NCBI GenBank assembly: GCA_902554785.1
Contig: CACDQG010000004.1
Span: 1 to 37,020, forward strand
DNA: 37,020 nucleotides
DNA from: an uncultured Pelagibacteraceae bacterium
Lineage (GTDB): Bacteria; Pseudomonadota; Alphaproteobacteria; Pelagibacterales; Pelagibacteraceae
Reading direction: 5' to 3'
Below are positions 18,959 to 35,414 of the stretch, piece after piece (the stretch's first letter is position 1; every line of letters begins with the position of its first letter). The notes below the pieces were generated by a model. That model saw nothing but the letters and a program-made list of their open reading frames with translations. It did no database searches and was not told the DNA's origin. The position numbers and the translations under genes are program-made.

Positions 18959-19795
18959 TTATTCATCTATTATTTCATGAAATTGCTCACCTAGTCCATC
19001 TACTTTTAAGTGAAGTTTGTCACCTGCCTTTAGAAATTCAGGTTTTTCCATTTCCATTGCTGTACCAGCAGGTGTCCCGGTAGTGATAATTGTGCCAGGA
19101 TATAAAGTCATAAATTGACTTAAGTGAGAAATTAAAAAATTGAAATTAAAAATCATTCTCCCTGTATTTCCAGTTTGTCTTCTGTTGCCATTTACATCTA
19201 ACGTTAAATTAATATTATTTAAGTTTTTTATTTCATCTTTGGTCACAAGGTAAGGCCCTGTTGGTCCTGCTATAGATTTACCCTTGATCCATTGACCACC
19301 TCTTTCTTTTTGCCAAGACCTTTCAGATATGTCATTAACGATACAATAGCCAAATACATAATCTTGAGTATTTTCTTCTTGAATATATTTGCCTTCCCGA
19401 CCAATAATCACTCCAACTTCAACCTCGTAATCCATTTTACTAGCAGATTTAGGTTTTGCTATTTGATCATTAGGACCCTGAATACATCCAGAGCTTTTAT
19501 TAAAAACAATTGGTTCAGTTGGTAATTTTGATTTGGTGCCATCTGCATGTGCTTTATAATTTAAACCTATTGCTAAAAAATCTACGGGATTTGAGATGCA
19601 AGCCCCAATTCTAATATTTGAGTTGATTTCTTTAAGCTCTGATAATTTTAATTTTTTTAATTTATTTAATGTTTCTTCATTAATTGTTTGAGGATTTAAA
19701 TCTTTAATATGTTCTGATAAATCCCTAATGACATTATTACCGTCTAAGGCAGCAACAATTTCACTTCCTATCTCACCAACTCTTAATAATTTCAT
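18959..19795 (-). CDS. fumarylacetoacetate hydrolase family protein
   Basis: AIGLNYKAHA, MDYEVEVGVIIGREGKYI, GKSIAGPTGPYLV, TGTPAGTAMEM. Confidence 0.9.
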   Translation of the reverse strand: MKLLRVGEIGSEIVAALDGNNVIRDLSEHIKDLNPQTINEETLNKLKKLKLSELKEINSNIRIGACISNPVDFLAIGLNYKAHADGTKSKLPTEPIVFNKSSGCIQGPNDQIAKPKSASKMDYEVEVGVIIGREGKYIQEENTQDYVFGYCIVNDISERSWQKERGGQWIKGKSIAGPTGPYLVTKDEIKNLNNINLTLDVNGNRRQTGNTGRMIFNFNFLISHLSQFMTLYPGTIITTGTPAGTAMEMEKPEFLKAGDKLHLKVDGLGEQFHEIIDE

Positions 19796-19819
19796 TAATT
19801 AATTTTAGTATTGGAATCG

Positions 19820-20266
19820 TTATTTTACAAATCTTTTGATTCTTTCCTCAGTGGTCGTTTCAGGACCAGAGTATGGGGTTTCGTAACTATTAGTCCTTGT
19901 TAATACATCAATTCCTTTAGTAAAAATGAAGATAAAAAAAACAATAAAAAAGACTGCAAATATTTTTGCAGGGTTATAATTACCGGATTGAAAAACACTG
20001 ACTGGTTGTTCTTGTTTTTTGTGAAAAAATTTAAATGTTAAGTAAACTGCTATTATTAATCCAATATGTGCCATAACTACTCCAGCCCAACCAAAAATAA
20101 AAGAGGTTACACTAAATACATAGAGACTAAATACAGTGGACCAAACAAATGACAAAACAATTAAAATTTGAAGCCTTACAGACTTTGGCAAACTTCTTAA
20201 GTCATTTTTACTATCATCAAACATGATGTTTGCAGCTTCAGTCATCCAATTTTTAAAACTTTCCAT
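19820..20266 (-). CDS. hypothetical inner-membrane protein
   Basis: 148 aa, about three hydrophobic segments. Confidence 0.6.
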   Translation of the reverse strand: MESFKNWMTEAANIMFDDSKNDLRSLPKSVRLQILIVLSFVWSTVFSLYVFSVTSFIFGWAGVVMAHIGLIIAVYLTFKFFHKKQEQPVSVFQSGNYNPAKIFAVFFIVFFIFIFTKGIDVLTRTNSYETPYSGPETTTEERIKRFVK

Positions 20267-20304
20267 AACAGCCTTATATACTCTTTAAATTGAAATTTAA
20301 ATTA

Positions 20305-20883
20305 TTATAAATTTCGCACTAGTTTTCTTACTTTTTGCATATGTGAATTAAATTTTTCTTGTGTCATACCTGGTAAAACTTCATAAAATCTTATGTAGGT
20401 TGTTTCCATTCCACCAAGCTTTAAAACTCCAGCTTTAATTCTCCTAAATGGAATATTTTGAAACCAGGTTTGAATTGAAAACCAATTTCCACCGTAAGAC
20501 ATCGACATTATAGCTTTTCTACCTTTCATAGCACCAGCAACAGGATAACCCCAATTACCAACAAGTCTTTTAAAAGAGAAAAACCATTTAGGAGCTAAAG
20601 TTAAATCAATCCAATTTTCTAAAATTGCAGTCGCTCTAAGATTGTAACAAGGTGAAATCATAAATAATACATCACTTGCTTCTAATCTTTTTCTATAATC
20701 TAAAATTTGATCATTAGGTCCAGAACCGTCAAAAAAAGGAATTGGTTTTTCCTCATGTAAATTAATTAAATCAATTTGATGACCTAATTTTTTTGCTTCA
20801 TCGATAAAAACATCTCTTACAGAGGCATTAAATGATTTTTTTATATCATGATGACCGTAAACGATAAAAATTTTTTTAGACAT
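20305..20883 (-). CDS. NAD(P)H:quinone oxidoreductase / flavodoxin-like fold protein
   Basis: IFIVYGHHDIKKSFNASVRDVFIDEAKKLGHQIDLINLHEE; LENWIDLTLAPKWFF. Confidence 0.82.
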   Translation of the reverse strand: MSKKIFIVYGHHDIKKSFNASVRDVFIDEAKKLGHQIDLINLHEEKPIPFFDGSGPNDQILDYRKRLEASDVLFMISPCYNLRATAILENWIDLTLAPKWFFSFKRLVGNWGYPVAGAMKGRKAIMSMSYGGNWFSIQTWFQNIPFRRIKAGVLKLGGMETTYIRFYEVLPGMTQEKFNSHMQKVRKLVRNL

Positions 20884-20885
20884 CT

Positions 20886-21041
20886 TTATTTGTCTATATC
20901 ATTTTTTTCATTTTTTCGTATTAGAAATCCTGAACCTATCCCCACTGCAATAGCTGATATAACCCATGAGTATTCTTGTTCGCTGAAAAGAACTAATAGA
21001 CCAAAACCTATAATGATTACCCCTAAAAGCTTATTATCCAT
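20886..21041 (-). CDS. 51-aa small membrane protein
   Basis: MDNKLLGVIIIGFGLLVLFSEQEYSWVISAIAVGIGSGFLIRKNEKNDIDK*; two hydrophobic helices, just upstream of the flavoprotein gene. Confidence 0.5.
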   Translation of the reverse strand: MDNKLLGVIIIGFGLLVLFSEQEYSWVISAIAVGIGSGFLIRKNEKNDIDK

Positions 21042-21162
21042 TGACAAATATAAACCTTATATTAAAGTTTACTTACCCATCTGTCATGGGAAAAAAGACT
21101 CGGCATTCGACATGCCGGACCTATAAAGGGTTGCAAAGTCGGTAGAAATGAAAGGAGTTGCT

Positions 21163-21354
21163 ATGAATAGATTTAGCAAACTGTATGGAAATTCTGCCGT
21201 TAAAAAAGCTGAGCAGAAACTCTCAATGCAGTTAAGTAAAAACCAAAAAGCCCCCGAGGCTAACGCCAATGGAACTGCTGGTTATTTGGTTAAAAACGGA
21301 AAAAATTCCGGAAAAATTTTGAAGCATTTAAAAACTGATAAAAATCAGCTTTAA
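21163..21354 (+). CDS. small conserved-looking basic protein, unknown
   Basis: Strong SD aaaggag-ttgct-ATG; MNRFSKLYGNSAVKKAEQKLSMQLSKNQKAPEANANGTAGYLVKNGKNSGKILKHLKTDKNQL. Start moved from 21148. Confidence 0.6.
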   Translation: MNRFSKLYGNSAVKKAEQKLSMQLSKNQKAPEANANGTAGYLVKNGKNSGKILKHLKTDKNQL

Positions 21355-21365
21355 ACTTTTATAGG

Positions 21366-21387
21366 GTGGGGACTTTAAAATCCCCAC
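21366..21387 (+). terminator. hairpin terminator
   Basis: gtgggga-ctttaaaa-tccccac after the small CDS. Confidence 0.6.
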
Positions 21388-21409
21388 TCAAGTCTTTAAT
21401 ATCCTCTCA

Positions 21410-22501
21410 ATGGAAAAACAAAATTTTTATGATCTTAATTTTGATCAATTAAAAACTTTTTTAATTGAAAAAGGAGAAGTTGAGCCAAAAAAAGCAAAGA
21501 TGAGGTCTCAACAACTTTTTAATGCAGTTTATAAAAAAAATATTAAAAGTTTTGATGAGCTAACAACATTTGGAGTTGAGCTTAGAGGTAAGATCAAAAA
21601 TTTAATTAGTTTAGAAAAACCGAAAATTATAGATGTTCAAAAATCTAAGGACGGGACTATAAAATTTCTTTTAGAGCTTAAAGATAAACGTAATGTTGAG
21701 ACAGTCCTTATTCCGGATAAATCCCAAAGCAGATATACAATTTGTTTATCTGTATCAGTGGGTTGTTATCTCTCTTGCGAATTTTGTGCAACAGCTCAAA
21801 TTTCAAAAAAATTAGTAAGGAATTTATCACCAGGTGAAATAATTTCTCAAATAATTTTAAGTAAAGATTACATCAATGATTGGTCAACACAGAAAAAAAT
21901 AACCAATCAGGTATTGATGGGTGAGGGCTCACCTTTTCTGAATTTAGATAATGTTAAAGTTGCTATAGATAATTCAAAAAATAAAGATGGCTTAGAATAC
22001 GGAAGAACCAGAATCACAGTCAGCACTGTGGGAGTTGGAATTAAAAAAGATAATTTAGATGCAATAGAGTGGGCTGCAAATGAGTTAGATGTTTATCTTG
22101 CATGGAGTTTACATAGTTCTATACCAAAACACAGATCAGAATTAATGCCAATAAATGATAAATATTCAATTAATTCACTATTACCAAAACTAAAAAAGTA
22201 TTATGAAAAAACAAAATTACCTATTTTTATTGAGTGGATATGTTTAGACGAGAATTTAACAGATGCACACGCTAAAGAACTGATAAAAATTATGAAAAAA
22301 GTTCCTTCAAAATTAAATTTAATTGAATTTAATCCTCTTTCAAACAAAGATTTCAAACCAGCGACTCAAGAAAATATAGATAAGTTTTCTAAAACAATTC
22401 AAGAAGCTGGATTTCTCTCTTTGTTTAGAAGAAGTAGAGGTAGAGACATAAATGCATCTTGTGGATCGTTAGCAAATAGTAAAGCTATTCTTAATGGATA
22501 A
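21410..22501 (+). CDS. rlmN: 23S rRNA (adenine2503-C2)-methyltransferase, radical SAM
   Basis: CYLSCEFCATAQ CxxxCxxC; ITVSTVGV; WSLHSS; FRRSRGRDINASCGSL. Confidence 0.93.
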   Translation: MEKQNFYDLNFDQLKTFLIEKGEVEPKKAKMRSQQLFNAVYKKNIKSFDELTTFGVELRGKIKNLISLEKPKIIDVQKSKDGTIKFLLELKDKRNVETVLIPDKSQSRYTICLSVSVGCYLSCEFCATAQISKKLVRNLSPGEIISQIILSKDYINDWSTQKKITNQVLMGEGSPFLNLDNVKVAIDNSKNKDGLEYGRTRITVSTVGVGIKKDNLDAIEWAANELDVYLAWSLHSSIPKHRSELMPINDKYSINSLLPKLKKYYEKTKLPIFIEWICLDENLTDAHAKELIKIMKKVPSKLNLIEFNPLSNKDFKPATQENIDKFSKTIQEAGFLSLFRRSRGRDINASCGSLANSKAILNG

Positions 22502-23441
22502 TTTGCATATTTTTTTAGGTGCAACAGTTGCTGATGCAGCCACTAGACCTTTGCATTGGGTATATGATCCAAAAAAGTTAAAAAAATATATTAAGGGAAA
22601 AAAAGAAATAGCTTTTTTGAAAAAAAACAGAAGTCCATTTTACTCAATCAAAACAGGCAAAGTTTCTGGTTACAATGATGTCGGACAAGTAATGTTTAAA
22701 ACACTTATTTCAACAAAGAAAAAATCAGATGTTTTAAAAAATTTTAAGAAAAATGTTGTCCAAAACTTTGGACCAGGTTCAGCTTATTGGAAAAATTTAA
22801 GACTTAGAAAAAAATACAAAAAGATTAAATGGAAAGGGCCCATGAATGGTCCTTGGATCCACCAAAACATATTAGAAACTATTCAAAACATTAAAACTAA
22901 GAAGAGCACAACTGGAGGCAAAAAGGTAAACGAGTCCGATGGTTATTGCGCAGCTTTACCTTATTTTCTTTATAATAATTCAGAGCCAGACTTAAAAAGG
23001 ATAATAAAAAGTGTAGCTAATTCTAAAGTAAATGAAACTTACGCGTTAGCAAAATTTAAGATCATAGATCTAGCAATGAAAGGTGAGAAAAGTCCTGTAA
23101 ATGCCTTTGCTAGAAAGTATGGGAGAAAACGTTATTTCAAAGACGTTGTTGCTAATATTAAAAAGGTTTTAAGATTAAAAAAACATAATCATACTCAAGT
23201 TGTTAAGAAATTTGGAAAAGCGTGTAGCTATCCTGGCACCTTCATGGGTTCCATTCATGCCATGATTACTTCTAATAATTATAAATCTGCAATTATTAAA
23301 ACTATTAAGGCTGGGGGTTGTAATTGCTCAAGAGCTAATTTTGTAGGAGCTTATTTTGCTGCTTATAAAGGTTTTAAAAATATTCCATCATCTTGGATTA
23401 AAAAAACTTTTCCAGCTAAAAATATTATAAAATATATTTAA
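22494..23441 (+). CDS. ADP-ribosylglycohydrolase-like (DraG superfamily) protein
   Basis: GATVADAATRPLHWVYD at the N-terminus (GDALG-like position), C-terminal AGGCNCSRANFVGAYFAAYKG; overlaps the rlmN stop. Confidence 0.65.
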   Translation: MDNLHIFLGATVADAATRPLHWVYDPKKLKKYIKGKKEIAFLKKNRSPFYSIKTGKVSGYNDVGQVMFKTLISTKKKSDVLKNFKKNVVQNFGPGSAYWKNLRLRKKYKKIKWKGPMNGPWIHQNILETIQNIKTKKSTTGGKKVNESDGYCAALPYFLYNNSEPDLKRIIKSVANSKVNETYALAKFKIIDLAMKGEKSPVNAFARKYGRKRYFKDVVANIKKVLRLKKHNHTQVVKKFGKACSYPGTFMGSIHAMITSNNYKSAIIKTIKAGGCNCSRANFVGAYFAAYKGFKNIPSSWIKKTFPAKNIIKYI

Positions 23442-23698
23442 TTATTCATTGAAAAGTACTTAGCTAATTCTTCTTTGTGGTATTTATAAATGTACCGATC
23501 AATAAGATCCCAATACTTTTGTGATTTACCATTAAAACCTCTTTTTATTAATTTCGTATGATAATATATAGCAGATCCAAAAACGTATTCATTTTTAATA
23601 ACTTTCTTATTTATTCTTTCCCAGTTATTAGCTAATTGATCACAGAAATATTCATTAACTTCATGCTCATTAAATAAGTGTTTTTTTATAGACGACAT
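23438..23698 (-). CDS. 86-aa hypothetical protein, last gene of the helicase operon
   Basis: TAATG overlap with the helicase stop; MSSIKKHLFNEHEVNEYFCDQLANNWERINKKVIKNEYVFGSAIYYHTKLIKRG... Confidence 0.65.
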   Translation of the reverse strand: MSSIKKHLFNEHEVNEYFCDQLANNWERINKKVIKNEYVFGSAIYYHTKLIKRGFNGKSQKYWDLIDRYIYKYHKEELAKYFSMNN

Positions 23699-26600
23699 TA
23701 ATTTAAATTTTTTATAAGAGCTTTAAGATAATTATCAAGTTTTTTAATTTCTCTTTGTGGGTTTTGAAACCAATTAGTAGACCAAATTCTGTATATATTC
23801 CAACCAAGACCTTCAAGAACATTTTGTCTTACAATATCATTATCTCGTGCAGATACTGAACTATGATAAGCAGCTCCATCACATTCTATACCTGCTAAAA
23901 AACCATATTTAAAACTTTTGTGTTTAATACCTAAATCAATGAAAAAACCAGAAACACCTACTTGAGGAACTACAATGTAGTCTAATTTTTCAAGTTCTTC
24001 TTTTACCCAATCTTCAAAATCACTATCAGTACTTCTACTAGTATCTGCTCCTGTTTCAATTCTTTGAGTCTGAGCATAATCCAAATAACTTTTAAAAATT
24101 TGTCTTCCTTTCTCACCACCATCTTTAATTAAGTTAGGAGTTAAAGAAGTAAAAAGCTCTAATCCTTGTTTAGCTCTAGTAAATAAAACATTTAATCGTC
24201 TATGGCCTTTTGGATGATTTATCGGGCCAAATCTTTGCATGGTATTTCCATCTTTGTTAGGGCCGAATAAAGTTGATACAAAAATATAATCTCTTTCATC
24301 ACCTTGAACGTTTTCCAAGTTTTTTACTACGAAAGGTTCCATAGTCTCCTCCCAATTACTTAAATATGTATTTACCTCAGGTATTTTTGAAGCTTTAAAT
24401 CTAATTTCTTCATCTATAAGATCTCTTTGAGAATTGTTCATTGTAACTACCAAACAGCTTCTTTTGATCGATTTTTTTACACTTGTTTTCATAAATTCGA
24501 TAACAGAGTCAGATATTTCATTTGCCTCTAAAATATTTACACCAGCACGTTCGGCTACGTTTTTATCTTTCCTTTTTTTATTAGAAGTGGATGCAGTATA
24601 AATAGCTTTTTCAATATAGTTATTCGTTATAGCAAATTTATCATTAGCACTTGGAGGAATAATTAAATTATTGTTATAGAAATGATAGTTTGAAAAGTTT
24701 ATTAAACTTTCATGCCTCGATCTATAATGCCATCTAAGCATTCGATTAGTAAATTTGGATAAAGCTAGATCAAGTATCGACTCGTCATCATCCACAATAC
24801 CGTCTTCAGTATCAAATTCAGATCCACTATTAAAAAAGTTTGTAGGAGGAAGCTGTTGTGGGTCACCTACAATAATCACTTGTTTTGCTCTAAGTATGGA
24901 ACCGAGAGCATCTTCAATTTTCATTTGCGAGGCTTCATCCACAATCAAAACATCAAATATTTCAGGTTCTGGACTTACAATTTGTGATAATGAGATAGGT
25001 GAAAGCATATAACATGGTTTCATATCTCTTAAAGCTCGTCCGGCTCTCCTCATTAATTGCCTGAATGGAATGTGAGCTCTTTTTTTTGTAGTTTCTCTTT
25101 CTATCAAAGCTTTCTCAGTAAGCTGGGAAACTTTTCCCCTTGAAACACCTTCTGTAATGTCCATCGAACCTAAATTATAGATTAATTGATTTTTTTGATT
25201 TTTATAAATTTTAGTATCAAGCTCTTTTAGTTTCTTAACTTCAGTTTCGAAAGAGGTAGATACATAAGACGATAGCTCTCTTTGTTCCTCAAATAATTTT
25301 TTTGCAAGTGAATTATAAATGAGAAATTTATAAGCAAAATCAAAATATTTGAAGTTAATATTTTCCTCTATAAATGAAAAATAAATCTTTTTTAAATTTT
25401 CTTCTAAATTTTTATTGTAGAAATTTAACTGGATATAATCTGATAAAACAGAGTCATCTTTTAAATCGAGTTTATCTACTTTTGTATATATGTTTTTAAA
25501 TACTAACTGATTATCACTTAAATTAAAAAACTTATTAGGATCAACTTTATTCAAAAATTTTGTATATATTTTTTCATAAGGATTTAAATCCTTTTCAATT
25601 ATAGAAATTGTTTTTTTTATTTCTTTAAGGTTTTCTATATTAGTGTTAACCATAATCTGATCATCAGAAGCATTAAATATAAAGAAGCCTTCTATTTCAT
25701 TTACTAAATCAATATCAGTTTCCTCGGCATTAAAATTTTTAGAAAAAGCTTTGCTTACTTTCTTATAATTCTTTTTTAATCTTTGCTTTTCAGTTTGAAT
25801 TTTTTCTTTGTAATCCAAATAATTCAAAAGTTGTGTTAACGATTCTATTGCTAATTGTTTTTCATATTGATTATCTTTTTTAATCAATTGGAAGTATCTT
25901 TTTGCTTCTCTATATTTTGAATTAAATAAAAATGATAATATGAATATTGATCTTTTTATTTCAAAAAGATGAGCTTTTAACTTAGTTTTATTAAAATCGT
26001 TATCAAGATCTATTATTTTGGAAAGTTTTTTCTCTATACTAAAAAAGTTGTTATAGTTTTTTAAATCAATAGTAAATTTTTGAAATTCTTCTATCTTATC
26101 GATAGTATCAAATTTTTTTATAATATTCCTTATACCTTTATCATTAACAATTTTTGTCTTATCAAAATTATTAAATAGTTTTCTTATTTCTTCTAAATTT
26201 GAGAAATTTTTAAGTTTAAACTTTTGAATAAAATCTTTAATTTTTGGTTCAATTTTTTTGGCACCATCTTTAAGAAATGTTAAGGATTTTTTTAGCTCTC
26301 TTATTTCAAATGGATTATTTTTATCTTCAGTTAATCCATACCAAGGATGAGAAGTAATATTTTTGAATTTTATTTTAACTTTGGAAATAATTTCTTGAAT
26401 ATCTAATATACTCGCTAAATTTTTAGTAAATTCATCTTTACCTAATTCAGATGCGTTTTCTATTATTGGCTCCTCTTTTAAAAACTTAGGGAATTTGTCT
26501 ATAAAAAATTTGTATTTAGCTAAATTGGATAGGATCTCATACCCTGTTTTTTTAATTTCAAAAAACTCTGTGTCTAAGATTTTACCGTAGGAACGAATTT

Positions 26601-28077
26601 TTTTTATTTGTTCTTTGTAAGCTTGTTGATCAGATTTAAAGTTTTTATTAATACTAGGCGCTGTTAGTTCTAATCTTTTTTTTAATTCTTCAATAATAGA
26701 AGTTTTCTTTTCAGCTGTTGAACTTAATCTAAAGATAAATTTATCTAAATTTTTATCTTGTAGTTTCTTATAAACCACATCTAACGCAGCTTTTTTTTCA
26801 GCAACGAAAAGTACTTTCTTTTTTTTATAAAGGTAAGAAGCTATTATGTTTGAAATTGTTGTTGATTTTCCTGTTCCTGGTGGACCTTGAATAGCTAGGT
26901 TTTCACCGTTCATTGCATCTACAATAGTACTAAATTGAGAAGAGTCTGTTTCTTCAACTAAAATAGGTACTTTAGCATTTACAGTTGTGTCATCAACGTC
27001 ATAGCTTTCATTATTAAGACCGTCAGATTTAGACCCTGTAAATAATGTTTGAACAACTTCTTGATCGCCTAATTCTTTTCCACGTTTCTTCCAAATTTCT
27101 GGATCTAATTCCTCATACATAGACATTTTTGAATAAGTATGAATGGCTAAATTTATATATCTTCTAAGCTTCCAATCTGGCTTACTTTTTATAACTTCAG
27201 TTTCAATAAGTTGAAAGTAATCTTCAATTGTTGCCTCCTCTTTGAGCTTTGGTAATTTTATTTTAAAATCATTAAGTAATTTTCGAGATAGTGGTAGATT
27301 GGTTTGTAGTTCCCCTTCAGTACTTTCGATAAAATACTCTGGTCCTTTGCTAGAAGGTCTTTCAGTCAGTTGAACTTGAAGTAAAAGTAAAGGAGCAAAT
27401 CTAGGAGTATCTTTAGCCTCAAACCATTCTAAACAACCAAAAGACAAATAAAGTGTATTTGTGCCTTTTTCATCTAAAATTCTTTTTGTGTCTTTTCTTA
27501 TTGCTCTAGCTTTTCTTTCTAAATCTTCAGGATAAAACAATGTTTGTAAATTATTATCTGTATGCTTGGCGTCTTTTTTTGCTGAGTCCTTTGGAACTTC
27601 AAAATTTGGTTTTATGCCATGAGCCCTTGCATAATCTTGAATATTCATTGTCAATTTAGATGCTATTTTTGGCAAACCTAATTTTTTTCTAACCACATTT
27701 TTTAATTTACGAATTATTTTTAAAGAATCTTCATTAGACTCATCAAATCTTTCTCCTAAATCAGAAACAGAAGTCAAATACTCTTCGTTTATAAGTTTTT
27801 CCTCTTCATAAAGTTTTTTAAATTTATCTGTTCTTTCATCTTTAGGTTCTTCACTAGAAGGAGGCAAAGAGGAAATTTTTAATTTAGTATTATTATTTAA
27901 TTTTTCAAAAACAGAGTTTGGAAGCTCATCTATAATTCGGAGAACCTTATTAGATCTAGGGTTAAAATTTAAGTTTATTAGATTATTTCTATTAGAAATA
28001 TCTAGCAAATTTTGCCTAAACTTTTGAATAGCTTTTTGAGTAATCTTTAAAAATTGATCTTTACTTGTTGAGCCCAT
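23698..28077 (-). CDS. DUF4011-type SF1 (COG1112/Upf1-like) helicase with C-terminal Vsr/MTES_1575-like PD-(D/E)XK nuclease
   Basis: 1459 aa; N-terminal RQNLLDISNRNNLINLN; Walker A GPPGTGKSTTISNII; Walker B DVLIVDEASQM; IIVGDPQQLPP; RWHYRSRHESLI; VQGDERDYIFVS; RRLNVLFTRAKQ; C-terminal FFIDLGI...AGIECDGAAYHSSVSARDNDIVRQNVLEGLGWNIYRIWSTNWF. Confidence 0.9.
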   Translation of the reverse strand: MGSTSKDQFLKITQKAIQKFRQNLLDISNRNNLINLNFNPRSNKVLRIIDELPNSVFEKLNNNTKLKISSLPPSSEEPKDERTDKFKKLYEEEKLINEEYLTSVSDLGERFDESNEDSLKIIRKLKNVVRKKLGLPKIASKLTMNIQDYARAHGIKPNFEVPKDSAKKDAKHTDNNLQTLFYPEDLERKARAIRKDTKRILDEKGTNTLYLSFGCLEWFEAKDTPRFAPLLLLQVQLTERPSSKGPEYFIESTEGELQTNLPLSRKLLNDFKIKLPKLKEEATIEDYFQLIETEVIKSKPDWKLRRYINLAIHTYSKMSMYEELDPEIWKKRGKELGDQEVVQTLFTGSKSDGLNNESYDVDDTTVNAKVPILVEETDSSQFSTIVDAMNGENLAIQGPPGTGKSTTISNIIASYLYKKKKVLFVAEKKAALDVVYKKLQDKNLDKFIFRLSSTAEKKTSIIEELKKRLELTAPSINKNFKSDQQAYKEQIKKIRSYGKILDTEFFEIKKTGYEILSNLAKYKFFIDKFPKFLKEEPIIENASELGKDEFTKNLASILDIQEIISKVKIKFKNITSHPWYGLTEDKNNPFEIRELKKSLTFLKDGAKKIEPKIKDFIQKFKLKNFSNLEEIRKLFNNFDKTKIVNDKGIRNIIKKFDTIDKIEEFQKFTIDLKNYNNFFSIEKKLSKIIDLDNDFNKTKLKAHLFEIKRSIFILSFLFNSKYREAKRYFQLIKKDNQYEKQLAIESLTQLLNYLDYKEKIQTEKQRLKKNYKKVSKAFSKNFNAEETDIDLVNEIEGFFIFNASDDQIMVNTNIENLKEIKKTISIIEKDLNPYEKIYTKFLNKVDPNKFFNLSDNQLVFKNIYTKVDKLDLKDDSVLSDYIQLNFYNKNLEENLKKIYFSFIEENINFKYFDFAYKFLIYNSLAKKLFEEQRELSSYVSTSFETEVKKLKELDTKIYKNQKNQLIYNLGSMDITEGVSRGKVSQLTEKALIERETTKKRAHIPFRQLMRRAGRALRDMKPCYMLSPISLSQIVSPEPEIFDVLIVDEASQMKIEDALGSILRAKQVIIVGDPQQLPPTNFFNSGSEFDTEDGIVDDDESILDLALSKFTNRMLRWHYRSRHESLINFSNYHFYNNNLIIPPSANDKFAITNNYIEKAIYTASTSNKKRKDKNVAERAGVNILEANEISDSVIEFMKTSVKKSIKRSCLVVTMNNSQRDLIDEEIRFKASKIPEVNTYLSNWEETMEPFVVKNLENVQGDERDYIFVSTLFGPNKDGNTMQRFGPINHPKGHRRLNVLFTRAKQGLELFTSLTPNLIKDGGEKGRQIFKSYLDYAQTQRIETGADTSRSTDSDFEDWVKEELEKLDYIVVPQVGVSGFFIDLGIKHKSFKYGFLAGIECDGAAYHSSVSARDNDIVRQNVLEGLGWNIYRIWSTNWFQNPQREIKKLDNYLKALIKNLN

Positions 28078-28338
28078 TTAATTTTTTTTCATTAATAAAA
28101 TAATTCTTTCTCTAACTGCAGGAAGTCTTTTCTTTAGTATTTTTGCTAATGCAAATTCTGGCACTCTTTTTTTATACAAAGATAGCAACTTCTTATCATC
28201 TTCTGCCGTCCATTCAGATGTTGGTGGTATTGATGAAGTCTTTTTTTTAATATTTTTGCTTGGTGCACCACAGTTAGGACAGGATCTAGCTAGAGTAGAA
28301 ATTTCTTTATTACATTCATAACAAGGTTCTAATGGCAT
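28078..28338 (-). CDS. zinc-ribbon plus SANT/Myb-like HTH small protein
   Basis: CYECNKEISTLARSCPNCGAP (CxxC...CxxC), then EWTAEDDKKLLSLYKKRVPEFALAKILKKRLPAVRERIILL. Confidence 0.7.
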   Translation of the reverse strand: MPLEPCYECNKEISTLARSCPNCGAPSKNIKKKTSSIPPTSEWTAEDDKKLLSLYKKRVPEFALAKILKKRLPAVRERIILLMKKN

Positions 28339-28790
28339 TATTTTATAGCTTCTTTTAAAGACGTTATTTTTTCTTCTAGCTCTTTTATAGCTTTATAAAT
28401 TTTATCTTTTTCATCTTTGCTTATTTCCTCTCCAGAATCACTTTCTTCAGACATTGACTTTTCAACCTCACCCATTAGTTTTCCAACTCTCTCACCCATA
28501 GCAATCAGAGTCCTTTCTACTTTCGGTTTTTTATTATCACCGTGTAATTGAATATCTAATATTGAATTATAAACATCTAACAACGGATGGCCTTTACTTT
28601 TTTTCATTAAAGCAGCATCCACTTCTATAGCATCTCGCAAAGTTATATTTCTGTCGTGTTTATCCGGGTCTGCATATGTATTAAAAGCCTCTTTTTTTTT
28701 CTTAGTATTAGATAAATCAAGATCTGTTAGATCTTTTAAGGCATGTGATAAAGCTTGCTCAATTGTTAAAAATTCACGTATTTTAGGCAT
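28338..28790 (-). CDS. hypothetical protein, weakly reminiscent of phage CII-type regulators (first gene of operon)
   Basis: LTIEQALSHAL...FNTYADPDKHDRNITLRDAIEVDAALMKKSKGHPLLDVYNSIL, then coiled-coil tail; TAATG-coupled to the next gene. Confidence 0.55.
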   Translation of the reverse strand: MPKIREFLTIEQALSHALKDLTDLDLSNTKKKKEAFNTYADPDKHDRNITLRDAIEVDAALMKKSKGHPLLDVYNSILDIQLHGDNKKPKVERTLIAMGERVGKLMGEVEKSMSEESDSGEEISKDEKDKIYKAIKELEEKITSLKEAIK

Positions 28791-28859
28791 AAATGTCGTT
28801 CAGAATTTACCTCAATTTTGAACATTAATAAAATATATTTTGAAATCTATAAATAGTAA

Positions 28860-28926
28860 AACTCTTACAACAATCATTATCTCATTAACCCCCGGGCTCT
28901 CCTAAAATCATCCCGGGGGTTTTTTT
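28860..28926 (+). ncRNA. candidate ~65-nt small RNA ending in a strong terminator (5' end estimated)
   Basis: Possible -10 tataaa at 28848; unstructured 5' part then 10-bp GC-rich hairpin and T7. No ORF accounts for the terminator on this strand. Confidence 0.4.
28887..28926 (+). terminator. strong rho-independent terminator
   Basis: aacccccggg-ctctcctaaaatcat-cccgggggtt followed by a T run. Confidence 0.9.
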
Positions 28927-28998
28927 ATGTTCAAGTGCAGCCTCAATTTTGAACGTTAATAAAATAGAGTTTATCCAATGATTGAATAAGATTTAATT

Positions 28999-29295
28999 AT
29001 GAAAAAATTAAAAATTTTTATCTTGTTGCTTGTATTAACTGGATGTTCTTACAAGCCAATAATTGATAGCAGAGGAAATAACGGAAAAAACGTGGCCCAT
29101 AGACTTTCAGATGATATGCAAACATGTAAAGCTATTGCTAAAGATCACACTAATAACTTCGTAGAAGCTTATAAAGCGGTTTACAACTATTACATCAGAC
29201 CAGCTACTTTGTGGTTGCCTGATAAAATGGAGTTTAAATACAAATCTTTAGTAAAGAAATGCTTAACTAACAGAGGGCATAGCGTTTTAGAATAA
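28999..29295 (+). CDS. small lipoprotein
   Basis: MKKLKIFILLLVLTGCSYKPIID lipobox; TCKAIAKDHTNNFVEAYKAVYNYYIRPATLWLPDKMEFKYKSLVKKCLTNRGHSVLE. Confidence 0.7.
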   Translation: MKKLKIFILLLVLTGCSYKPIIDSRGNNGKNVAHRLSDDMQTCKAIAKDHTNNFVEAYKAVYNYYIRPATLWLPDKMEFKYKSLVKKCLTNRGHSVLE

Positions 29296-29296
29296 T

Positions 29297-30166
29297 ATGA
29301 AAACAAAAGAATTTGATAAAGTAAAACCATATACATATTTGATTATTAGAAAATCAGACAATATGAAATATCATGGTGTGAGATATGGTAATATTAAATT
29401 TGGTCGATCTCCAAGAGAGGATTTTGGAAAGAAGTATTTTGGAAGTAGTGCAGGAAGTTTTTGCGGTGAATTTAAATTAAATCCTAGGAATTTTATATTC
29501 AAATTATTATGGACTTTCGATAAATCTGATGAAGCAATTCAACATGAAAAGAAAATTAATCAAAAGATTTATAAACGCAAAGATTGGATAAATAAAAACG
29601 CATTTCCAGCCATTTATAATGAGGTACACCCCTTATTAGGAAAAAAACATTCTAAGGAATCAAAATTGAAAATATCAAAATCTCTAACGGGAAAAAAAGC
29701 TAGTCTAGAAACAAGAATAAAATTGTCAAAAATGCGAAGAGGAAGAAGACTTAGTCAATCACATGTTCAAAATATAAGAAAAGGAAATACTGGAGTTAAG
29801 AGAAGTTTGGAAACCAAATTAAAAGTAAGATTAGCAAATTTAGGAAAAAAAGCTTCAAAAGAAACAAGATTGAAAATGTCAGAAATGCGAAAGGGAGTTC
29901 CTAAAAGTGAAAAACATAAAGCAAAACTTAGAAAACATTTAAAAAAACTTATGTGGAAAAAAGGTAATGAGCCGTGGAATAAAGGAAAAAAAGGACTTCA
30001 AGTTGCCTGGAATAAAGGAAAAAAATTTTCTTTGGAGTCAAGAATGAAAATGTCTTTAAGTCACAAAGGTCATGTTCCTTGGAACAAAGGAAAGAAAGGT
30101 GTCCAAGTTCCTTGGAACAAAGGTTTCAAACTTAAACAAATAAATGAAAGGAGGATGGATGGTTAA
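29297..30166 (+). CDS. homing-endonuclease-like protein: GIY-YIG-type N-terminus with NUMOD3 repeats
   Basis: YTYLIIRKSDNMKYHGVRYGNIKFGRSPREDFGKKYFGSS; repeated GKKHSKESKLKISKSLTGKKAS / GKKASKETRLKMSEMRKG and PWNKGKKG motifs. Confidence 0.8.
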   Translation: MKTKEFDKVKPYTYLIIRKSDNMKYHGVRYGNIKFGRSPREDFGKKYFGSSAGSFCGEFKLNPRNFIFKLLWTFDKSDEAIQHEKKINQKIYKRKDWINKNAFPAIYNEVHPLLGKKHSKESKLKISKSLTGKKASLETRIKLSKMRRGRRLSQSHVQNIRKGNTGVKRSLETKLKVRLANLGKKASKETRLKMSEMRKGVPKSEKHKAKLRKHLKKLMWKKGNEPWNKGKKGLQVAWNKGKKFSLESRMKMSLSHKGHVPWNKGKKGVQVPWNKGFKLKQINERRMDG

Positions 30167-30329
30167 AAAGGATAAAGATATCTACGAAGGTTATGAACCA
30201 GATTGGAAAGATCTTAAAGCTCATGAAGAAGCATTAGCTGAGTGGAAAAAAAATAATCCAGATTGGACAGATGAAGATGCAGCTGAGTACTATGGTCAAA
30301 TGCAATGTGATTTGATGAGGGGAAAGTAA
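30159..30329 (+). CDS. small acidic protein, unknown
   Basis: SD aaaggagg then ATGG; MVKKDKDIYEGYEPDWKDLKAHEEALAEWKKNNPDWTDEDAAEYYGQMQCDLMRGK; overlaps the HEG end. Confidence 0.6.
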   Translation: MVKKDKDIYEGYEPDWKDLKAHEEALAEWKKNNPDWTDEDAAEYYGQMQCDLMRGK

Positions 30330-30330
30330 T

Positions 30331-33300
30331 TTAAACTTTGTATTGTAATAATTTACAAAAGTTATTGACTAAACGTATCTCATTTATCTTCTGACAATCT
30401 GCTAGCAATAGCTTAGGATTAAATAGAATTACAGCTACGCACTGAGCTCTCGAAATGGCTACGTTTAGACGGTTTCTACTGAAAAAAAATTCTTTGTGTC
30501 TTGGTAGATTTTCAGGGTCAGAGGAAGTCATGGATATAAAAACTACTTTAGATTCTTGACCTTGGAATTTGTCAATGGTTCCAATCCTAGCTTCTTTTTT
30601 ATTAAGTATTTTCTTTAAATTGTTAACTTGCATATTAAAAGGAGCCACCATCATAATATCATCTATAGTCATCTTCTTTTTTTGTTTATCTTCGGTGTAA
30701 TTTTTTCCTAAAATTTTTGAGCAGTAGTCTTTTATTATTTTAGCTTCTTCATCAGATTTCTGAGTGCAGTCTTGATGATCTACTGGTAGATAAAAAATCC
30801 CCTCATTTTTTATTTCTTTTAATTCAAGTGATACAGATCTTTCTTTGGTAATTGGATGAGATTTAAGCCTAGACTCATAAAAGCTTGAAGAAATATATTT
30901 ACATATTTTCTCATTTAATCTTCTCGTAACCCCTAGGAAAATCCCTCTCGATAATGGAATAGTATCGTAATCTCCAAGTAGAAAATCTAAAGCACTTTTA
31001 CCCGAGTTGCCTGAATGAATACCTTGAATAGGTTGTGAGAGTTGCATTTGGTCTCCAATTAAAATGATATTTTTTGTACTTGTAGAAATAGCAAGTGTAT
31101 TAGCTAACGAGACCTGACCTGCTTCATCAACAAAAAGATAATCCATTTTTGAGGTCCATCTAGGATCAGAAAACAGCCATGCTGTTCCGGCGTGTAGAAG
31201 ATATTCAGATGGAAACTCTTTCATTCTACCACTTACATCTTCTATAATTTCACCTTTAAGTTTGTCTTCATCCTTACTCGATTTTTTCATTCCTTTAAAA
31301 GTAAAATTCTCTTCAAGGGCAAACTTTTCAATTTGTTTAAGTAGATTATTTATAGCTTTATGAGAGTTGCTCGTAATACCAACTCTTTTATTATCTTTAA
31401 GCAAACTTAAAATTATTTTTGCTGAAGTATAAGTTTTACCAGATCCTGGAGGACCCTGTATTAACAAGTAAGATGAATTTAATTGTTTAACAGCTTTAAT
31501 AGATTCATCTACAAGATCATTTTTATCATCTATAATGGGATTTCCTTTATTTATATTCTTTAAATCAGGATAATCTTTTTTTAAAATATCCAATCCACAT
31601 TTAAACGCTAGCTTGTCTCCCTCTGTATAATTAAGAATGAATTTATTTAGAGCACCAGCAATTGTTGCGGTATTCACCACAGGGCCAGGTCCAAAATCAA
31701 AAAGCTTCGGCGGTTCTCCAACTTTAGTAATTCTTTTCCCTGTTATTGTTAATTCAATATAATTTTCATCATCTTTTATTTCATCGATTTTTGTTATTTT
31801 TCCAAATGAAAGATCAGAAGTAACATCATAAGCTTGATCTCCTTCTTTTAATTTAAAATTTTGTTCATCAAATTTATATAGATAAACAATATTATCAGTA
31901 TCTTTAATTTTGGTTTTTTTGACAAAAATTGCACCCCCAATGCACTCAGGATCATCCAAAAGTTCATCAGGCCCCTTGTCTAATCGATCAAACTTTTCCC
32001 AATACTTTGATTTGTTTTCTCTTCTATGAAAACCAACTAAATGTTTTAAATTTTCCTTAACTTCTTCTTCATCATCTTTTAAATTTCCAATAACTTTTAA
32101 TTGAATTGCAGACTCCTTAACCTCAAAGTCTTTTACATCAGTGTTTTTAAATTCTTCTTCTGCAGAAAGTTTAAAGAAAGGAAAATCTTTAGGTCTATTT
32201 TTTATTAAAAACTCTCTCAAATCGTAAGTAGATATGCAATCTTCCTCATTATAGGCTATGACATCTTTTAAATCTTTATCATTTTTAGTTGTTAACCAAC
32301 TTTCAAATAATCTAATACTATCATCAGCAGTTTTAATATCAGCGCTTCTTTCATCCCGGTAAAATTTTTCTATCGATTTTAGAGACAAGTCTTTTTCTGA
32401 TGTTTGCATGCACTGTGAAACTACCCGGTATAAATCTACAAATTTTTCTAATCTTAAAAGCTTATCGACAAAATTATTACCTTTAATAAATGTTGCAGAA
32501 TAATCAGAAGCTAATTCTCTTAAAGCTCTCTTTTCATAATCATTATAATGGTAGAGGTATGCTTTAGGGTATTTATCAAAATGTTTTTCTAGAAATTCTA
32601 TAAGATCTTTAAAAATTTTTTCTTCTGCTGCTTTGGTAAAGTCTTTGACTGTAAAATCTTTGAATTCGAATTCTTTTCCATTATAGAAATATATACCGTG
32701 AAGATATTCAAAAGGTCTTTGATCAGCTTGAGGGAAACCTTCAATGTCGTAAAAAACATCTCCTTCATTTGGTTCTGGCATTTTATAAAAGCCTTTATTG
32801 GTCTCAGTTTTATTAAAAATAAACTTACTTTTGTTAGTTAACCTTTTTTCCTCTTGTAACTTGGCTTGTTGAGTGAGCTTTACTTTAGAACCAGGATTTA
32901 TCTTTGATTTAATTTTTTTTGGATCAGTTTTTGCAAGTTTCTCAATTGTAGATATGTTTTCTTTTTTTAGTTTAGAAACTTGTGATGATCTAATACCACA
33001 AACTTGATTAATATAATTATCTTCATCCCATTTTTTAGTACAAACATCTTGCCAATCACAAATATTACAAAATGAACATTTCTCAGGATACATTTTTTCT
33101 TTTAAAACAGTCGAGAGAAATTTTTCAAAATTGTTTTTAGTAAATAAAAAATAATCAACAAATTCGTTTACATTAAAGGAATTTATTAGTTGGGTGCCAT
33201 CAACCAGATGCATTTTTTTTGGCATCAATCCTTGAATTTTACTTAATAAGAAAGAGTAGCCTGTGGTTTGTAATACGTGCTTAGGTCTAAGAGTTTTTGT

Positions 33301-33705
33301 AACTTTAGTATCATAAACCTCAAAGCTAAAATCACCTAGATCTGATTTAGATTTATTTTTTATTAGAAAATCAATTTCTCCACCAAAATATTCATGCATA
33401 AGATAAGCCTTATAGATTAGATCATATCCATCTTTGATGGCTTTGATTGTGTCCTCATATTTTTTTTCAGCTGATTGCTTAGGATCTATTGTTATGTGTT
33501 TTTTATGTTTTTTAGATAATATTTTAAAGTATTCCTGTTCATGTTTTTTTCCGTATTCAATACGCAATTTTAAGTCAGCACTTTTTTCTTTTTTAGTTAA
33601 GTTAAGTTCTTTAGCGATAAGATCATTCTTGATGTGATATTTACAGGATACAAAATTATTTAGATCGGTTGGTGAATAAGAAATTTTATTATTATTAATT
33701 TTCAT
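30331..33705 (-). CDS. TM0106-type RecB/Cas4-like nuclease + DEDD exonuclease-like domain + SF1 helicase fusion
   Basis: 1124 aa; SYSPTDLNNFVSCKYHIKND, GGEIDFLI, VYDTKVTK, LQTTGYSFLL, C-cluster CSFCNICDWQDVC; VFYDIEGFP and NEEDCISTYDLREFL; helicase QGPPGSGKT, LFVDEAGQVS, ILIGDQMQLSQP, FQGQESKVVFISM, RNRLNVAISRAQ. Confidence 0.88.
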   Translation of the reverse strand: MKINNNKISYSPTDLNNFVSCKYHIKNDLIAKELNLTKKEKSADLKLRIEYGKKHEQEYFKILSKKHKKHITIDPKQSAEKKYEDTIKAIKDGYDLIYKAYLMHEYFGGEIDFLIKNKSKSDLGDFSFEVYDTKVTKTLRPKHVLQTTGYSFLLSKIQGLMPKKMHLVDGTQLINSFNVNEFVDYFLFTKNNFEKFLSTVLKEKMYPEKCSFCNICDWQDVCTKKWDEDNYINQVCGIRSSQVSKLKKENISTIEKLAKTDPKKIKSKINPGSKVKLTQQAKLQEEKRLTNKSKFIFNKTETNKGFYKMPEPNEGDVFYDIEGFPQADQRPFEYLHGIYFYNGKEFEFKDFTVKDFTKAAEEKIFKDLIEFLEKHFDKYPKAYLYHYNDYEKRALRELASDYSATFIKGNNFVDKLLRLEKFVDLYRVVSQCMQTSEKDLSLKSIEKFYRDERSADIKTADDSIRLFESWLTTKNDKDLKDVIAYNEEDCISTYDLREFLIKNRPKDFPFFKLSAEEEFKNTDVKDFEVKESAIQLKVIGNLKDDEEEVKENLKHLVGFHRRENKSKYWEKFDRLDKGPDELLDDPECIGGAIFVKKTKIKDTDNIVYLYKFDEQNFKLKEGDQAYDVTSDLSFGKITKIDEIKDDENYIELTITGKRITKVGEPPKLFDFGPGPVVNTATIAGALNKFILNYTEGDKLAFKCGLDILKKDYPDLKNINKGNPIIDDKNDLVDESIKAVKQLNSSYLLIQGPPGSGKTYTSAKIILSLLKDNKRVGITSNSHKAINNLLKQIEKFALEENFTFKGMKKSSKDEDKLKGEIIEDVSGRMKEFPSEYLLHAGTAWLFSDPRWTSKMDYLFVDEAGQVSLANTLAISTSTKNIILIGDQMQLSQPIQGIHSGNSGKSALDFLLGDYDTIPLSRGIFLGVTRRLNEKICKYISSSFYESRLKSHPITKERSVSLELKEIKNEGIFYLPVDHQDCTQKSDEEAKIIKDYCSKILGKNYTEDKQKKKMTIDDIMMVAPFNMQVNNLKKILNKKEARIGTIDKFQGQESKVVFISMTSSDPENLPRHKEFFFSRNRLNVAISRAQCVAVILFNPKLLLADCQKINEIRLVNNFCKLLQYKV

Positions 33706-33765
33706 ATCAAATTTTTAATACACTTTTGTACACCTTCATCTTAAAAAAAAAAATTATAATTACTA

Positions 33766-33793
33766 TTGACTTTAAAATTGTGTGGTGTATATT
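33766..33793 (+). promoter_or_regulatory. predicted sigma70-type promoter for the ExoI leader transcript
   Basis: TTGACT (33766-33771), 16-nt spacer, TATATT (33788-33793). Confidence 0.6.
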
Positions 33794-33810
33794 GAAAATA
33801 CTAAATATAA

Positions 33811-33966
33811 CTACTTGTTTAGATGTGATTGTTTAGTAACCTTTCGTACCTTTCTTTCATCTAAACATTTATCAAATAAGTAGCTAAATTAGTAAACCGA
33901 CTACTCGTTTAGAAGTTGGATGTTAGTTCTTGCCTTTCTGTTTAACATTCTCTTCTATTCAGTAGT
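33811..33966 (+). ncRNA. two tandem related stem-loop elements in the ExoI leader
   Basis: Element A CTACTTGTTTAGATG...CATCTAAAC...AAGTAG (33811-33883); element B CTACTCGTTTAGAAG...CTTCTA..AGTAG (33901-33965); 90-nt offset; compensatory T-A to A-T change in the shared stem. Confidence 0.6.
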
Positions 33967-33983
33967 TAAAAGTAAAGAAAAAT

Positions 33984-35414
33984 ATGAATATAGTTATTTG
34001 GGATATTGAAACAGATTCAAGTAATACTTTTTTTGGAACTATTATCGAGATAGGAGCGATCCTTTTAAACGAAAATTTTCAAGAATTAGACAAATTAAAT
34101 ATCAGATGCAGGTTGCCTGAAGGTGTTATTCCTCAGGCGGGAGCTTTATTAGTGAATCAGTCTAACGTTTCTATGCTTACCAAAGCTAATTACTCGCATT
34201 ACCAAATGCTTCAAGAAGTTGAGTCAACTTTCAAAAGGTGGAGCCCAGCAGTATTTTTAGGCTACTCGAATATAAATTTTGACGATGAAATGCTGCGCAA
34301 AGAGTTTTTTAAAGGTCTTCGTCAGCCTTTTTTAACAAACACAAATGGAAATAAAAGACAAGATGGTCTTAACATCGTTAGAGCAGCCTTTGCAGTGAAT
34401 AACAAAATTATGAAAACAGAAATCAATGAAAAAGGAAATGCCGTTATGAAATTGGAATCACTTGCTAGGATGAACGGAATTGAGTCAGGCGGAGCTCATA
34501 ATGCATTATTTGACGCAAGCTTAACCAAACTTATTTTAGAAAAAATTTATAAAGAACAAAATATTACTTGGCGTTCAGCTATGATGACAGGAAGTAGAGA
34601 GGAAGTAGAAAACTTTTCAAGAAAAGAACTAATGTTTACTTTAAGCGAATATTTTTATGGACGATCGAAACTTTTTCTCGTTACACCATTACATCCTGAG
34701 CATATGTTACATCCTATCTACAAATGGGTTCAGGCATTTGATTTAAGATTTGATCCCAAAAATTATTTTGATCTTCCATTAAACGAGCTTAAAGCTGAAA
34801 TACAAAAAACGCCAAAATTTTTAAGAACGATCCGCTCTAACAAAGGGCCAGTATTGCTACATCCTGATTACGGATGCAAAGCAGACCCTTACGTTGGCAT
34901 TAGTAAAGAAATTTTAACTGAAAGAGCACATGCGATTAAAGAAAATAAAGATTTTTGCGGCAGAGTAACTCTAGCTTTAGCAGAAATTGCTCAAGAAAAA
35001 AAAGACTCAGGAGATCAATCTGATATTACCCCCGAAGAAAGTATTTATGTAAAATTTGTAGATAACAAAGAAGTTCCTAAAATGCAGAAATGGCACCAAG
35101 CTAATTGGGAAGATAAATTTAAACTTTTAGACAAATTTGAAGACGAGCGTTTAGTGGATTTTGGTAAGAAAATTATTTATCAAGAAGCTCCACAAGTATT
35201 ACCTGAAAGCGTTACAAAAGAAATTAAAAGAGGCATTGCCAAAAGAATTTTAAGCACAAATAAAGAAAAATGGACAACCTGTTCTGACTTTTATACTGAA
35301 TGTGATCATTTTAGAGTTCAGTTTGAAAAAGATGGTAATAAGGAAAAATTGAATTTTTTAGATGAGATAAATCAATTTGTAGAGAATATTCAAAAAAAAT
35401 ATGAAGCTGCCTAA
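33984..35414 (+). CDS. sbcB: exodeoxyribonuclease I (DEDDh)
   Basis: VIWDIETDSSNTFFGTIIEIGAI; RCRLPEGVIPQAGALLVNQSNV; GYSNINFDDEMLRKEFF; GGAHNALFDASLT; LHPDYG. Confidence 0.9.
   Translation: MNIVIWDIETDSSNTFFGTIIEIGAILLNENFQELDKLNIRCRLPEGVIPQAGALLVNQSNVSMLTKANYSHYQMLQEVESTFKRWSPAVFLGYSNINFDDEMLRKEFFKGLRQPFLTNTNGNKRQDGLNIVRAAFAVNNKIMKTEINEKGNAVMKLESLARMNGIESGGAHNALFDASLTKLILEKIYKEQNITWRSAMMTGSREEVENFSRKELMFTLSEYFYGRSKLFLVTPLHPEHMLHPIYKWVQAFDLRFDPKNYFDLPLNELKAEIQKTPKFLRTIRSNKGPVLLHPDYGCKADPYVGISKEILTERAHAIKENKDFCGRVTLALAEIAQEKKDSGDQSDITPEESIYVKFVDNKEVPKMQKWHQANWEDKFKLLDKFEDERLVDFGKKIIYQEAPQVLPESVTKEIKRGIAKRILSTNKEKWTTCSDFYTECDHFRVQFEKDGNKEKLNFLDEINQFVENIQKKYEAA

Follow-up and report, generated by a model that had tools for sequence, protein, structure and literature searches.

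A distant relative of the helicase-nuclease Hhe as probable anti-phage cargo of a defense hotspot in Pelagibacteraceae

Does a run of tightly packed genes around a very large helicase-nuclease constitute one dedicated defense system, or is the helicase-nuclease a self-contained protein in exchangeable company? The question is raised by a stretch of 37,020 nucleotides (hereafter, the window) on contig CACDQG010000004.1 of an uncultured Pelagibacteraceae bacterium, the assembly of which comprises 690 kb and is 58% complete. An initial annotation interpreted four of its genes, denoted here as cii, znr, HEL, and o86 in their order of reading, as a candidate uncharacterized antiphage system centered on the helicase-nuclease HEL. 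Our analysis points to HEL alone being a horizontally gained, single-polypeptide anti-phage protein of the Hhe/PDC-S37 type that is carried as cargo in a defense hotspot, probably under the control of cii, and we assign this reading a probability of roughly 0.7.

The chance of encountering an open frame of 1459 codons at the local base composition is P ~1e-52 under a simple stop-codon model. Within the HEL protein, Pfam domains DUF4011 (E 4e-31, residues 23-267) and MTES_1575 (E 4e-33, residues 1354-1450) accompany an AAA_11/AAA_12 helicase of superfamily 1 (SF1), the core of which is split by a long insertion. The helicase motifs GPPGTGKS, VDEAS, GDPQQ, and WHYRS and the nuclease residues E20, D46, ECDG, H70, and RD (domain-alignment numbering) are common to HEL, Hhe, and 12-15 homologs, and this alignment confirms the earlier observation that both activities have intact motifs. 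The predicted model of the nuclease domain (pLDDT 88) is PD-(D/E)XK/Vsr-like and, among solved structures, comes closest to mitoribosomal RAP-domain proteins and to the homing endonuclease I-Bth0305I (E 3e-4 to 1e-3); the match to I-Bth0305I (E 9e-4) is stronger than that to Vsr. The closest match to bear a name is a partial copy from the uncultured Pelagibacteraceae AG-900-N22 (78% identity across residues 3-481), which marks the source organism as SAR11-like. A comparison with this copy yielded a dN of 0.16 and a dS of 1.43 across 481 codons (dN/dS ~0.11), which shows that the HEL protein is under purifying selection.

The architecture of HEL is not unfamiliar but is that of Hhe, and the label of an uncharacterized system is therefore not supported. 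Judged by sequence, HEL is a new and distant relative of this known single-gene anti-phage helicase-nuclease (named 'Gao Hhe' in PMC13249269), which likewise carries DUF4011, an SF1 helicase, and an MTES_1575 nuclease on one chain, in the same order and with the same motifs, and which is likewise a single gene with a patchy, often plasmid-borne distribution. The Hhe of a Klebsiella plasmid is 34% identical to HEL over 82% of HEL (~31% N-terminally and 46% across the C-terminal 475 residues), whereas its length is 1911 aa. In PADLOC, Hhe ranked second (E 8e-211) behind PDC-S37 (E 1e-301), for which no cut-off is stated; the PDC-S37 match joins HEL residues 14-1456 to model positions 7-1343 of 1550 and is full-length with respect to HEL as a single gene, although the C-terminal part of the model (beyond ~1343) is absent from HEL and PDC-S37 is itself only a candidate family. 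The match to ProA spans HEL residues 13-1456 and model positions 356-1708, such that the first 355 positions of that model are absent from HEL. In contrast, likeness to Mokosh (MkoA/MkoC) is confined to the SF1 helicase core. Mokosh has PLD-type domains (PMC10952713) whereas HEL has a Vsr-like nuclease and no PLD domain, in agreement with the distinction drawn in the initial annotation.

HEL was detected in 2 of 397 Pelagibacteraceae genomes, these being the source genome, where it is the sole occurrence in the genus, and a genome from another genus (G401). In a class-wide sample, relatives were encoded in 26 of 318 genomes, usually as a stand-alone gene. This distribution led us to reject HEL as a core or housekeeping locus, which the initial annotation had named as the finding that would speak against its proposal; HEL is accessory. 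Carriage by phages was also rejected, since a scan of IMG/VR at the sensitivity used returned no relative of HEL and phage records returned two weak partial matches.

Evidence for the insertion of HEL at a specific site comes from a comparison with a relative in which the flanking sequences are contiguous (G178). In a DNA alignment with that genome, the match to positions 19459-23441 of the window runs straight into the match to positions 33745-34001, and the intervening segment, which holds all four genes, is therefore extra in the source genome. A comparison with another genome (G015) had suggested that the ADP-ribosylglycohydrolase gene to the left (22494-23441) is also cargo; this was rejected because conservation of the gene extends through the genus (122 of 169 genomes and 14 of 14 near-complete ones). 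The region downstream of this gene was mapped in 40 genomes and then in a larger set (loci L089-L128 and L193-L226), chosen for a similar ADP-ribosylglycohydrolase and not at random. Among 58 loci linked to rlmN, ~36 were empty, with ADP-ribosylglycohydrolase directly followed by rmuC and exoI, and ~22 were filled, as counted manually from the table of loci (an automatic tally gave 37, 20, and 16, having placed G030 wrongly and counted unlinked copies as well).

The cargo of the filled sites comprised HerA with NurA (G018, G038, G183, and G342), DruA (G049; E 1e-121), SspC with DUF4007 and a PAPS-reductase domain (G104; E 2e-276), a C5 methylase with Vsr (G064 and G135), an N6/N4-type methylase with a Vsr-like protein (G330), Pif1-like helicases (G074, G043, and G057), and a RecB-like helicase (G059 and G336) that is related to a second helicase-nuclease in the insertion described here. 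The site between rlmN-ADP-ribosylglycohydrolase and rmuC-exoI is a defense hotspot in Pelagibacteraceae. It resembles cDHS1 and cDHS2 of Pseudomonas aeruginosa (PMC10250203) in being a fixed site between conserved genes that holds varying immune systems, and differs from them in the identity of its flanking genes and in being mostly empty. Our literature search found no paper describing this SAR11 site.

Collectively, homology to Hhe and PDC-S37, patchy distribution, insertion in a hotspot that holds defense genes, and purifying selection support a role for HEL in defense, which remains the best reading of the locus, as the initial annotation had proposed. Several points weigh against it. HEL does not reach the curated NCBIfam cut-offs for Hhe (NF042953; 1036 bits versus 2000) or ProA (NF058533; 900 bits versus 1500), and by the curated rule it therefore belongs to the group of DUF4011-helicase-nucleases rather than to Hhe itself. 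A DUF4011 gene of Pseudomonas aeruginosa is a core gene that flanks a defense hotspot and is not cargo (PMC10250203), and DUF4011 alone is therefore no proof of defense. We found no paper on PDC-S37 and no phage assay for HEL or for any PDC-S37 member. Finally, the operon and its regulation are predicted from spacing and motifs.

Table 1. Features of the insertion and its flanks (positions in the window).
Feature	Positions	Strand	Description
Left flank, rlmN and ADP-ribosylglycohydrolase	21410-23441	plus	Conserved in the genus
Whole insertion	23442-33744		10.3 kb; relative to G178, where the flanks are contiguous
o86	23438-23698	minus	86 aa; last gene of the unit
HEL	23698-28077	minus	1459 aa; DUF4011, SF1 (Upf1-like) helicase, and C-terminal Vsr-like MTES_1575 nuclease
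znr	28078-28338	minus	86 aa; putative zinc ribbon and SANT/Myb-like tail
cii	28338-28790	minus	150 aa; phage CII-like (CP76) probable DNA-binding regulator; heads the coupled unit
Candidate operator 1	28798-28823		GTTCAG-N14-TTGAAC; just upstream of cii
Terminator-like hairpin	28887-28926	plus	8-bp G-C stem and T7; between the two candidate operators
Candidate operator 2	28929-28954		GTTCAA-N14-TTGAAC; upstream of divergent o98-NUMOD-o61
o98-NUMOD3 protein-o61 cassette	28999-30329	plus	Divergent from cii
Second accessory helicase-nuclease	30331-33705	minus	TM0106 RecB-like/RNase H-like and SF1 helicase; related genes occupy this site in G059 and G336
Right flank, exodeoxyribonuclease I-like (exoI)	33984-35414	plus	rmuC-type gene that normally precedes it is absent here

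Whether the small genes belong with HEL was evaluated from the layout of the locus and from the company that each gene keeps elsewhere. The four minus-strand frames and their junctions were confirmed as annotated: cii and znr are joined by TAATG, znr and HEL by TAAATG (immediate adjacency), and HEL and o86 by TAATG. This tight spacing suggests that the genes now form one transcription unit, and the coupling of all four would fit a dedicated defense system in which cii regulates, znr loads or targets HEL, HEL itself cuts, and o86 inhibits or assists. Such a system would also accommodate the recurrence of zinc-binding elements near HEL, since the HEL of G401 has a SWIM-like CxC...CxH sequence at its N-terminus (by inspection) and is the last gene of an operon that encodes proteins of 78 aa, 58 aa (zinc-ribbon-like, also by inspection), and 266 aa (a PDDEXK_1 nuclease) ahead of it. 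Moreover, the SANT-like tail of znr also forms the C-terminus of Pif1-like helicases that occupy this hotspot in three genomes. G401 has a cii-like gene, with a candidate operator of its own, ~1.5 kb from HEL and divergent from the HEL operon, and a regulator of this type adjoins the HEL operon in both Pelagibacteraceae loci with readable flanks.

Other loci argue against a fixed set, which we rejected. Neither znr nor o86 adjoins HEL in G401 or AG-900-N22, and wherever flanks could be read in class-level homologs, znr, o86, and cii were all absent from the immediate neighborhood of HEL, with several class-level contigs stopping close to HEL. Conversely, relatives of each small gene occur without HEL. 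Those of o86 were found in three genomes lacking HEL (G104, G298, and G262); the copy in G104, from the same genus, is 75% identical and lies inside an Ssp-type island, and this copy and weaker ones elsewhere mean that o86 is not strictly the ORFan that it was taken for. Relatives of znr likewise occur without HEL, and cii is usually found without it; its proposed partnership with HEL thus finds support in the G401 locus and opposition in its wider distribution. At the same hotspot, cii travels with o98-NUMOD3-o61 in G015, G062, and G080, where HEL, znr, and o86 are all absent. Since cii, o86, and the znr tail each occur in other settings, the unit is best regarded as an assembly of exchangeable parts. 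We consider a dedicated four-gene system unlikely, as znr and o86 fail to co-occur with HEL, the pattern by which the initial annotation had proposed that the set be judged.

Additional observations concern these neighbors. The znr tail is ~50% identical to the C-terminus of a Pif1-like helicase at the hotspot (L120:4024-5523). In G262, an o86-like frame adjoins a DUF2779 protein near a C5 methylase (L189, 5273-7185), which is a defense-like setting. The HEL relative of AG-900-N22 is immediately preceded, on its own strand, by an ion-channel gene (L005, 2023-2757).

The identities of cii and znr as a CII-like protein and a zinc ribbon, as first annotated, were recovered as weak Pfam matches below the curated cut-offs. 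For znr the match has E 0.002, and for cii the match to CP76 (PF06892) has E 0.008 and scores 16.5 bits against a gathering score of 26. The predicted model of cii is helical (pLDDT 80), and most of its best-ranked fold matches are to the CII protein of phage 186 (E ~2, not significant). A likeness to phage 186 CII is suggested by these weak sequence and fold matches; cii differs in lacking a significant match of either kind and in residing in chromosomal islands without a recognizable prophage. Phage 186 CII recognizes inverted half-sites ~20 bp apart. The half-sites of the candidate cii operators are also inverted and ~20 bp apart, center to center.

Members of the cii family were identified in 48 of 397 Pelagibacteraceae genomes, and the palindromes linked to them have 6-bp arms and usually a 14-bp spacer. 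In the window, the two candidate operators conform to GTTCAR-N14-YTGAAC; none of the window shuffles contained two such sites, and the 690-kb genome has no further match. Related cii genes are accompanied by GTGAAA-N14-TTTCAC, of which the 2.18 Mb of fetched sequence contains 14 distinct sites, a count that shows linkage and geometry rather than genome-wide specificity because many loci were fetched for carrying cii relatives. These sites lie within ~100 bp of the starts of cii or of other genes of the same island, and the same arms were not found at spacers of 8-13 or 15-20 in the same 2.18 Mb. A second subfamily, which includes the regulator of G401, is associated with CGTAGG-N16-CCTACG, and G015 has two copies of GCCTAA-N13-TTAGGC. 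Because a generic comparison of palindromes across the upstream regions of all cii genes showed weak enrichment, and other island genes had entered its control set, we relied on the sequence-specific site counts.

A strong terminator-like hairpin occurs in this region of the window and likewise in G015 and G269, and in the source genome and G015 it lies between the paired palindromes. This arrangement suggests a short, terminated transcript. A promoter scan returned sites no more frequently than in shuffles, and the same scan gave no terminator, its loop limit being smaller than the loop of this hairpin. Positions 23000-34100 contain no credible known RNA family, the one match falling below its gathering score. 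In G134, four GTGAAA-N14-TTTCAC sites occur in one island (L054; 7326, 7838, 13007, and 14545), and TTGACG follows three of them at equal distance, as if the sites were placed before a promoter.

It is conceivable, and we advance it tentatively, that a family of CII-like proteins with dedicated inverted-repeat operators controls exchangeable islands in SAR11 bacteria and that the switch in this island drives an Hhe-type helicase. If this is true, two operators around a short terminated transcript would hold defense in check, forming a phage-like switch in a streamlined host. A phage-like regulator with multiple operators around island genes might alternatively mark the insertion as the remnant of a mobile element or phage satellite, with HEL as its weapon against competing phages. 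The divergent promoter region with its internal terminator-like hairpin and the homing-endonuclease-like NUMOD3 protein would both fit such an origin. Yet the insertion yielded no integrase, transposase, tRNA, or structural gene, no relative of HEL was recovered from IMG/VR at the sensitivity used, and the cargo varies piece by piece from genome to genome while the site stays fixed, which fits exchange through homologous flanks. We regard a mobile-element origin as quite improbable. Least probable is a housekeeping or stress role for HEL in DNA repair or at replication forks, since the DNA metabolism genes rmuC and exoI in the flanks, the Upf1/Sen1-like sequence of HEL, and the core status of DUF4011 genes elsewhere (PMC10250203) are set against its absence from nearly all relatives, its insertion at a site that holds other defense-type genes, and the anti-phage function of its closest named relatives.

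The remainder of the insertion and its right border have features of their own. The NUMOD3-repeat protein (29297-30166), which travels with cii, o98, and o61, is without a nuclease domain recognized by Pfam. In G178, G095, and G259, exoI is preceded by an rmuC-type frame (330 aa in G095) that the window lacks; compared with those genomes, the frame is absent almost precisely from start to stop, at positions 33968-33969, and the rest of the incomplete source assembly did not yield it either. The leader upstream of the rmuC-type gene or exoI (33745-33972) is highly conserved in the same three genomes and has two predicted hairpins (fold z-score -2.6) with no match in Rfam.

In our preferred reading, that of HEL as single-polypeptide anti-phage cargo, the DUF4011 and SF1 helicase modules would engage abnormal or invading DNA, such as ends, gaps, or replication intermediates. 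HEL would then translocate on the DNA with ATP, and its C-terminal Vsr-like nuclease would cut it. The znr protein, with its putative zinc ribbon and SANT-like tail, may be a DNA-binding helper. Most likely, cii would bind the operators and regulate its own promoter and thereby the downstream genes, including HEL.

HEL extends a known family and opens no new one; the SAR11 hotspot and the CII-like operators are the more interesting parts of this locus. Phages heavily infect the abundant SAR11 bacteria of the ocean, and the literature that we searched says little about where these bacteria carry their defense genes. A hotspot that is empty in most of the relatives inspected and differently filled in others can be mined for further defense systems. 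The combination of a CII-like protein and recognizable candidate operators, in turn, offers a regulatory idea of how costly nucleases may be controlled in a streamlined cell.

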